33,934 nt of DNA. Source: a virus. Positions within the stretch are counted from its first letter, which is position 1; each line of letters starts with the position of its first letter. The stretch is taken from the IMG/VR virus record IMGVR_UViG_3300033153_001271, positions 1 to 33,934 of that record; one strand, 5' to 3'. Shown here piece after piece: positions 16,040-18,511 of this stretch. The position numbers were made by a program, and so were the translations under genes. The notes below the pieces were generated by a model, which ran no database searches, was not told the DNA's origin, and saw only the letters and a list, made by a program, of their open reading frames with translations.

Positions 16040-16681
16040 TTATTTGATTAATTTCTCGTTTTCTACTTCCATAATCGCTCGGCCTATTAACTCAGGTATT
16101 TGCGGGACTACTGCGTTTCCTAATCTTTTAAATCTGTCCACTCCGGGGGAAAGCCCATCAGCCACTCGACCCATTCCGGGTTGATCCATTGCCCTGCTAA
16201 TTCTGGATATTCTCTCGCGCCCCACTCCTCTAAGTTTGCGTGATAATCCTCCCTCAAAAACCACTTGTTCCACATTGTCATTCTTGGGGTAGGCGATAAT
16301 CCAGACGCGATCCCTGTTTTGAGGTCTACCAACGTATGAAGCCGGAATACTATGCCATTCTGCATCGTACCCGACCTCGGCCAAGTCATAGAGAAATTTT
16401 GCAAACCATCTTCCTTGTTCTCCACTAAGCAACCCTGCGACATTCTCAAAAATTGCATATCTTGGTCTACACTCGCCAATAATTCTAACTGCTGTCCCTC
16501 TGTATTTTTTACCATCTAGCAACCTCACATCTTCATGCATTGGAATGTCTGGCCAGTGCTTTTTCAACACTCTCTGGGCATGTTTATCAAACTCACAAAA
16601 AGCTATTGTTTCCATTCCCGCTCTTTCTAGGCCAAGAGAGAATCCGCCTATTCCGCTGAATAAATCGAGAACCTTTAACAA
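16040..16681 (-). CDS. Cytosine-C5 DNA methyltransferase lacking the catalytic motif IV (likely inactive)
   Basis: The frame runs from a TTG at 16681, coupled to the previous stop (TGTTAAAGG), to 16040 and gives 213 aa. Recognisable Dcm motifs are I (LDLFSGIGGFSLGLERAG, residues 5-22), VI (FENV, 78-81), VIII (QNRDRVWI, 121-128) and X (RLGNAVVPQIPELIGRAIM, 186-204). Full-length relatives have about 35 residues with PCQ and a Ser-rich block between 'RGT' and 'IIGE.RPRYAI'. Here the join is GTAVRIIGECRPRYAI, so the catalytic Cys is gone. The target-recognition part is short as well. An alternative frame (16120-16515) overlaps it. Confidence 0.75.
   Translation of the reverse strand: MLKVLDLFSGIGGFSLGLERAGMETIAFCEFDKHAQRVLKKHWPDIPMHEDVRLLDGKKYRGTAVRIIGECRPRYAIFENVAGLLSGEQGRWFAKFLYDLAEVGYDAEWHSIPASYVGRPQNRDRVWIIAYPKNDNVEQVVFEGGLSRKLRGVGRERISRISRAMDQPGMGRVADGLSPGVDRFKRLGNAVVPQIPELIGRAIMEVENEKLIK
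16120..16515 (-). CDS. Overlapping-frame methyltransferase-tail-like ORF inside the dcm gene
   Basis: An ATG at 16515 opens a second frame on the same strand, entirely inside the methyltransferase gene. Its 131-aa product contains SMTWPRSGTMQNGIVFRLHT, GIASGLSPTPRMTMWNKW and the end WINPEWVEWLMGFPPEWTDL. I know these motifs ('TWPRSGTMRNG', 'NP.FVEWLMGFP.GWTDL') from the C-terminal part of phage DNA methylase-type proteins. In this genome they arise by reading the dcm DNA one frame over, so both frames look conserved. No ribosome site is clear. A frameshift could join it to the main frame. Confidence 0.4.
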   Translation of the reverse strand: MVKNTEGQQLELLASVDQDMQFLRMSQGCLVENKEDGLQNFSMTWPRSGTMQNGIVFRLHTLVDLKTGIASGLSPTPRMTMWNKWFLREDYHANLEEWGAREYPELAGQWINPEWVEWLMGFPPEWTDLKD

Positions 16682-17839: not shown

Positions 17840-18457
17840 TTATTCCTTTAGTCCGCGCTTATCGCCGTGAGCGATTGCAATTAACCCACCTTTATTTGCT
17901 CTCCAAAACTTCAAGGCTGTTTTACCGTCCATTTCAATTATTCTATTATCATCATAGCCTAGCCAATCTTTAATAAGATGTAATTCACAACCTATCTTCA
18001 TATGCTCGTCGAGAATAGTTATATCCCAATTTAAGCCATAGATAAATAAAGGCTGTCTTTCAATGGTTATTTCGTCGGTGTATTTTGTCTCGCGCAAGTC
18101 AGTAGAGCTCAAGTCAGCAGAGCGCAAGTTAGCAGAGCGCAAGTCAGCAGAGCGCAAGTTAGCAGAGCGCAAGTCAGCAGAGCGCAAGTCAGCAGAGCTC
18201 AAGTTAGCAGAGCGCAAGTCAGCAAAGCGCAAGTCAGCAAAGCGCAAGTCAGCAAAGCGCAAGTTAGCAGAGCTCAAGTCAGCAGAGCGCAAGTTAGCAG
18301 AGCGCAAGTTAGTAAAGCGCAAGTCAGCATCTTTTTTAATCGCAATCTTTACCGCCAAACCTAATTTAAAACCATAACTCTCGTTTTCGTATTCAGCATC
18401 TAATTCACATTCAAATTGAACATCGCCCGTAATTCTATTTTTAATCTCGAATTTCAT
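17840..18457 (-). CDS. Pentapeptide-repeat protein, first gene of the leftward early arm
   Basis: I start it at the ATG at 18457 (205 aa, [16 protein letters not shown]...), because ACGAGGGGAAATATT stands directly in front. An upstream in-frame start would lie before the promoter. Residues about 40-120 are A(D/N)LRSA-type pentapeptides ([20 protein letters not shown] ...) that fold into a right-handed four-sided helix. Such proteins can mimic DNA and protect or inhibit gyrase (Qnr, MfpA). The C-terminal part ([20 protein letters not shown]) is a separate domain. First place under an operator-bearing promoter suggests a host-takeover or anti-defence role, which is inference. Confidence 0.8.
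18096..18329. repeat. 15-nt direct-repeat array (15 full units and a partial) within the pentapeptide gene
   Basis: Units such as aagtcagcagagcgc and aagttagcagagcgc start every 15 nt from 18096 to 18306, with a partial one at 18321. They differ mostly at two or three positions (c/t, g/a). Each unit codes one pentapeptide on the minus strand. DNA-level near-identity suggests recent expansion by slippage or recombination and allows the repeat number to vary. Confidence 0.85.
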
Positions 18458-18479
18458 AATATTTCCCCTCGTTTTCAAT

Positions 18480-18511
18480 ACTATTGCATACCGTATCACA
18501 GATAGCAATAC
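18480..18511 (-). promoter_or_regulatory. Leftward early promoter (PL-like) with operator
   Basis: Minus strand: -35 TTGCTA (18508-18503), 17-nt spacer, -10 AATAGT (18485-18480). The operator GTATTGC-TATCT-GTGATAC spans 18511-18493 and overlaps the -35. One base of the right half-site differs from the other two copies. It drives the pentapeptide gene (ATG 18457) and the leftward early genes. Confidence 0.65.

Follow-up and report, generated by a model that had tools for sequence, protein, structure and literature searches.

M.EcoHK31I (YGGCCR) is a cytosine-5 (C5) methyltransferase composed of two polypeptides, to which M.EaeI is similar, and both are host restriction-modification enzymes of demonstrated activity. 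Lee, Kam and Shaw are said to have reported in 1995 that the large open reading frame (ORF) of M.EcoHK31I encloses the small one, which is read in a different frame. The large polypeptide of this enzyme contains motifs I-VIII and X, the small one motif IX only (PMC3404938); M.AquI also consists of two polypeptides, with motifs IX and X both placed on the small one (PMC3404938). The current study deals with a phage locus in which a Dcm-type ORF (alpha) encloses a second long ORF in the +1 frame (beta). It is located in a viral record (IMG/VR IMGVR_UViG_3300033153_001271, positions 1 to 33,934), and the whole stretch of 33,934 nucleotides analysed is referred to as the window. The window locus shares with M.EcoHK31I the placement of motif IX in a separate small ORF and of motif X in the large ORF, and it shares the nesting of the small ORF within the large one in another frame, as reportedly in M.EcoHK31I. 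It differs from M.EcoHK31I in that alpha lacks motif IV, from the M.EcoHK31I and M.EaeI restriction-modification systems in that no restriction partner was identified, and from both these enzymes in being a phage gene known from sequence alone. Given the common motif division, together with the reported nesting, the most plausible reading of the locus is as a phage member of the M.EcoHK31I kind. Neither this precedent nor the supply of the missing motif IX by the alternate frame had been recognized in a preliminary description of the window DNA. M.EcoHK31I itself was not identified in a search of E. coli DNA, in which prophage relatives were found. The motif division of M.AquI is shared by several of the homologous loci (designated L; L223, L232, L250, L305-L308, L310-L314), whereas the small polypeptide of the window has motif IX only and is wholly nested.

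Both ORFs and their motifs exist where the preliminary description had placed them (Table 1), and its view that both frames are methylase-like is borne out by matches of the Dcm frame to PF00145 (E=3e-32) and of the alternate frame to the phage protein family phrog_1008, 'DNA methyltransferase' (E=1.4e-13). The alternate frame gave no match in Pfam or NCBIfam. The alpha chain of the window has motifs I, VI, VIII and X in order, lacks the PCQ of motif IV with the catalytic Cys, and has no canonical motif IX, which is found in the +1 frame instead; beta stops short of motif X. TWPRSGTMQNG, SGLSPTP and INPEWVEWLMGFPPEWTDL of the beta frame overlap LAEVGYDAEWHSI, IIAYP and MDQPGMGRVADGLSPGVDRF of the Dcm frame. 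The neighbourhood comprises P22-portal phage genes with YqaJ, ERF, HNH and N6/N4 methylase genes. Elsewhere in the window, a pentapeptide-repeat protein (17840-18508, minus strand) has repeats that hold a long antisense ORF open (18063-18377, plus strand), likely as a repeat effect only.

Table 1. Features of the two overlapping frames at the window locus.
Feature	Position	Strand	Evidence
Alpha frame: Dcm-type C5 methyltransferase ORF, 213 aa, TTG start	16040..16681	-	PF00145 E=3.2e-32
Beta frame: nested +1-frame ORF, 131 aa, ATG start, putative motif-IX polypeptide, phrog_1008 family	16120..16515	-	144.7 bits vs shuffle maximum 96
Shine-Dalgarno-like GAGG, 7 nt 5' of beta ATG	16523..16526	-	GTGAGG..ATG aligned in L103, L106, L108
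Alpha motif I DLFSGIGG, beyond the overlap	16643..16666	-	sequence
Alpha motif VI ENV	16439..16447	-	sequence
Alpha motif VIII region QNRDRVWIIAYP; beta reads SGLSPTP from identical DNA	16286..16321	-	sequence
Beta TWPRSGTMQNG; alpha reads LAEVGYDAEW from identical DNA	16354..16386	-	GGG Gly constraint in homologues
Beta motif IX INPEWVEWLMGFPPEWT; alpha reads DQPGMGRVADGLSPGVD from identical DNA	16135..16185	-	profile-profile alignment to canonical motif IX
Alpha motif X RLGNAVVPQI	16097..16126	-	sequence
Junction of in-frame deletion, ~33 codons (motif IV GGFPCQ..)	16486..16493	-	vs L103, L104, L106, L108

That the two frames hold more than chance would provide, as had been proposed, is supported by the window on its own. 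Among 20,000 synonymous recodings, a +1 run of 131 codons had a P of 0.002-0.003. For scoring, an alternate-frame profile was built without the window and without L097-L109, a set of loci retrieved by the Dcm protein of the window and holding the closest relatives of the window. Against this profile the native alternate frame scored 144.7 bits, compared to a mean of 54 and a maximum of 96 bits in 1000 synonymous shuffles of the window. Recoding with the window's own codon usage gave a mean of 37 and a maximum of 80 bits with the alternate-frame profile, and the third frame scored -1.8 bits. The shuffle average of 54 bits implies that part of the alternate-frame resemblance echoes Dcm conservation; most of it does not.

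A phage database search (tblastn) with the alternate-frame protein returned 49 phage records. Loci were fetched from these, and there the match fell within a dcm gene that had retained its Dcm frame, the alternate frame also being open over a long distance. Because this set had been selected by the alternate frame, dcm homologues were gathered anew with Dcm-frame queries and reduced to 151 phage sequences of <80% identity (GC 38 to 70%), nearly all of them obtained via the Dcm frame alone; the window is in this set, as are about a dozen phage loci from the first search. The +1 frame was open in 151/151 homologues (110-380 codons, median 221); for most of them its run-length q, from within-gene synonymous shuffling, reached or approached the floor of the test, and the third frame gave no exceptional run. 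Observed +1 stops, compared to expectation, were 356 vs 323 in the N-terminal part and 28 vs 118 in the motif IV region, falling to 4 vs 358 expected from synonymous shuffles over motifs VI-VIII (overlap core 1) and to 0 vs 161, expected likewise, in the TRD (the second shared core); they were 77 vs 125 in the motif IX region, where the +1 frame usually terminates, and 239 vs 164 at the C-terminus. The shared stretch is thus almost free of alternate-frame stops in close and distant homologues alike. The TRD is hypervariable, with many in-frame length changes, yet has no stop, which argues for protein coding and against an RNA element.

Excess synonymous constraint, proposed earlier as a check on dual coding, is strong in the overlap of both frames and confined to it, the ratio of observed to expected codon identity being 1.5-1.8 over motifs VI-VIII and 2.0-2.4 ahead of motif X, compared to ~1.0-1.1 over motif I and 3' of motif X. 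For the Gly of 'GY' in alpha, 143/149 homologues use GGG (33 expected), as required by the Gly of the alternate frame, and for the Gly of 'ADG' 137/142 do so. Between homologues of 60-80% identity, the ratio of changes at codon position 3 to those at position 1 of alpha drops from 2.34 to 0.70 in the last block, and this shift from position 3 to position 1 makes the alternate frame the stronger one there. As a control, 23 canonical dcm genes had 419 +1 stops vs 403 expected and none reached q<=0.01; the subfamily studied here is therefore distinguished by its nested frame. As to an independent protein family, phrog_1008 matches the alternate frame in 97/97 members tested, and every match examined was inside a dcm gene; no beta gene was found outside dcm, 80/80 bacterial and prophage loci from the beta query also having the Dcm frame. 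The comparison of homologues shows both frames to be under protein-level selection, and the dual coding (overprinting) suggested from the window alone is favoured by constraint, stop and independent-family tests in common. Judged by these sequence signatures, the nested +1 frame within the Dcm gene is a protein-coding gene. An arrangement on record for a few bacterial enzymes turns out to be ancient, and very common among phages.

The division of motifs between the frames suggests what beta may contribute. Its motif IX has the consensus NPxWVEWLMGFPxGWT, and the Dcm frame has motifs I-VIII and X without motif IX; the canonical C5 enzymes of the same genomes have LTPRECARLMGF or LTVREAARLQTFP as motif IX. 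The canonical IX-X HMM matched single beta proteins weakly (best 8.9 bits; 65 matches vs 9-11 decoys), and profile-profile alignment was used for that reason. In a short alignment of 17-18 columns with the full canonical C5 profile, the beta C-terminus picked motif IX (E=0.012), and with the canonical IX-X segment it gave E=7e-4 (reversed control, 0.3-0.4). Motif IX being carried by beta is well supported by these alignments. Searches of PDB, Pfam and NCBIfam returned no relative of beta, nor of its N-terminal part taken separately (SWKTSQ..TWPRSGMMRNG, WPTP repeats). The AlphaFold model of beta alone is of low confidence (pLDDT 64, pTM 0.33), its best-modelled stretch being the C-terminal motif-IX part. 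In some beta proteins (e.g., L161 and L232) several tandem 'WPTPxASD' modules, differing in count between phages, are present where beta overlaps the recognition region of alpha.

Regarding its expression, beta is likely to be translated by internal initiation, as suggested by the enrichment of Shine-Dalgarno plus start ahead of the overlap together with the GAGG-7 nt-ATG of the window. In the +1 frame, such a combination is present in the interval ahead of the overlap in 76 homologues vs 34 expected (n=151); the third frame has 4 vs 7 expected in this interval, and elsewhere counts are at expectation. L103, L106 and L108 have the same distance from GTGAGG to ATG as the window. Since an in-frame TAG directly precedes the beta ATG of the window (16515), this ATG is the most upstream one possible in the ORF.

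Natural rearrangements of the overlap are informative. Motif X is in the alpha frame in 231/254 classified loci. In about a dozen loci (L223, L232, L250/L303, L305-L312, L314), the alpha frame is stop-filled 3' of motif VIII, and beta is open with motif IX followed by X. L163 has motifs I-VIII, NPDWVEWLMGYPLGWT and X all in one frame, with LNPDWVEWLMGYPLGWT between recognition region and motif X, and matches PF00145 end to end (1-323, E=3.5e-57), compared to window-type alphas which match over motifs I-VIII. In L365 and L376, motifs VIII and IX are continuous in a single frame. An indel or an assembly error could account for each of L163, L365 and L376. In L279, the alpha frame has motifs I-VIII and X, and the nested +1 frame itself passes the PF00145 cut-off (positions 175-297) with an unmistakable motif IX, VRRMLPSEYERLQGFPKNWT. 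Motif IX of the alternate frame thus joins other methylase motifs in one chain in several relatives, and the earlier idea that one family arose by frameshifting of the other is apt in so far as single-frame, split and fused versions do exist. L279 represents a second lineage of nested alpha/beta methylase, in a Verrucomicrobiales MAG, and is adjoined by a gene resembling Vsr endonuclease. In two MAG contigs (L256, L268), the dcm portion encoding motif I is in the beta frame. The frame switches at DGKPW in both, a place at which translation of alpha could resume from an ATG; the switch may be either real or a sequencing error. In Mycobacterium phage Llama and relatives (L270), dcm is split by a frameshift between motifs VI and VIII that disrupts both frames, and the split gene was deposited as two 'DNA methylase' genes.

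The window copy is itself altered, in a way that the preliminary description had missed. Compared with L103, L104, L106 and L108, it lacks ~33 codons between KYRG and RIIGEC (window 16484-16493), a deletion that takes GGFPCQ from alpha and a SPAKTS-like segment from beta while keeping both frames; its junction was absent from the other viral contigs searched. The catalytic Cys is gone with motif IV, so that the window copy is probably inactive, the alpha/beta pair probably being catalytically dead or in decay, and methylation activity in the window phage appears unlikely. We consider it somewhat probable that the window locus is a decaying pseudogene pair whose ancestral dual coding is out of use. 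The in-frame loss of PCQ and SPAKTS from a locus whose relatives retain both, and the uniqueness of the junction, are consistent with decay; against it, both frames are still open with motifs and start signal intact, and the deletion, seen in a single metagenomic assembly, could be an artefact.

Considering the evidence as a whole, the locus very probably represents a phage two-polypeptide C5 methyltransferase with the small-subunit gene inside the large-subunit gene. Alpha would supply the SAM-binding and catalytic domain (motifs I-VIII and X), and beta, started internally in the +1 frame, probably from its own Shine-Dalgarno and ATG, would supply motif IX and, probably, some of the target-recognition face. 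Both chains would associate into one enzyme, as reported for M.EcoHK31I. We infer beta expression, alpha-beta assembly and methylation, and for the intact relatives a two-subunit methylase is strongly suggested by analogy. Selection on the Dcm frame alone, with conserved Dcm residues and codon bias mimicking an open and conserved alternate frame, is extremely improbable. It would agree with the ~54 bits retained by synonymous shuffles and with the habit of gene callers to annotate one frame only, but the native score far exceeds the shuffle maximum, +1 stops are depleted and GGG enforced, and loci with a stop-filled Dcm frame retain an open, conserved alternate frame. A pure echo of Dcm conservation is ruled out by the shuffles, the stops and the null results of the third-frame and canonical-gene controls.

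A fused alpha-beta chain in place of a separate subunit, made by ribosomal frameshifting out of the alpha frame, seems very unlikely despite the joining of motif VIII to IX in L365 and L376, the single-frame L163, and the shared switch at DGKPW in L256 and L268: a second shift would be needed to reach motif X, most often alpha-frame, and internal starts are enriched, with that of the window placed just behind an in-frame stop. Beta might also be a true nested gene with a role other than completing the methylase, e.g., in anti-restriction or host regulation. The orphan N-terminal part and the persistence of the window beta despite the loss of alpha motif IV would fit such a role, which we nonetheless regard as improbable considering that beta carries motif IX, that about a dozen loci have beta joined to motif X, that motif IX lies between VIII and X in the single-frame L163, and that the Dcm frame accompanies beta at every bacterial and prophage locus from the beta query. 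Extending the two-polypeptide reading, a phage-wide class might split catalysis and target recognition over two frames, the window pair having outlived its catalytic motif to become a non-methylating DNA-binding pair; we offer this as an unlikely but conceivable scenario. With catalysis and recognition in shared DNA, the recognition region of one subunit would change only with the other.

Earlier annotation has touched on the locus in parts. The library entry of phrog_1008, the same phage protein family as the alternate frame, is named methyltransferase and makes no mention of nesting within alpha. The deposited annotation of Paenibacillus larvae phage Lily gives both frames (gp62/gp63), the nested one as 'g62 internal gene', and other P. 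larvae phages list two methyltransferase CDS at such a locus; the two papers on P. larvae phages that were searched contain no analysis of the overlap. For L004, L005 and L013 the deposited annotation is the beta frame with alpha omitted, one being named 'DNA-cytosine methyltransferase'. A literature search for an overlapping gene in phage cytosine methylases found no paper. The literature found does not cover the breadth of the arrangement, nor the variants in which the overlap is undone, either with both IX and X on beta or, in one gene, with a single frame.

Lastly, cellular and phage genomes seldom encode two long conserved proteins in the same DNA. The present family, which spans phages and prophages of many bacterial phyla, allows such dual coding to be measured with large statistics. 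The locus provides its own natural controls, with the overlap intact, with the overlap resolved and beta carrying motif X, and as a single-frame enzyme. Annotation is corrected for public records that usually give one frame and in some cases only beta, as 'methyltransferase' or 'hypothetical protein', and phrog_1008 gains a concrete, testable role as putative motif IX subunit. The family is a large one in which to study how overlapping genes arise and separate.
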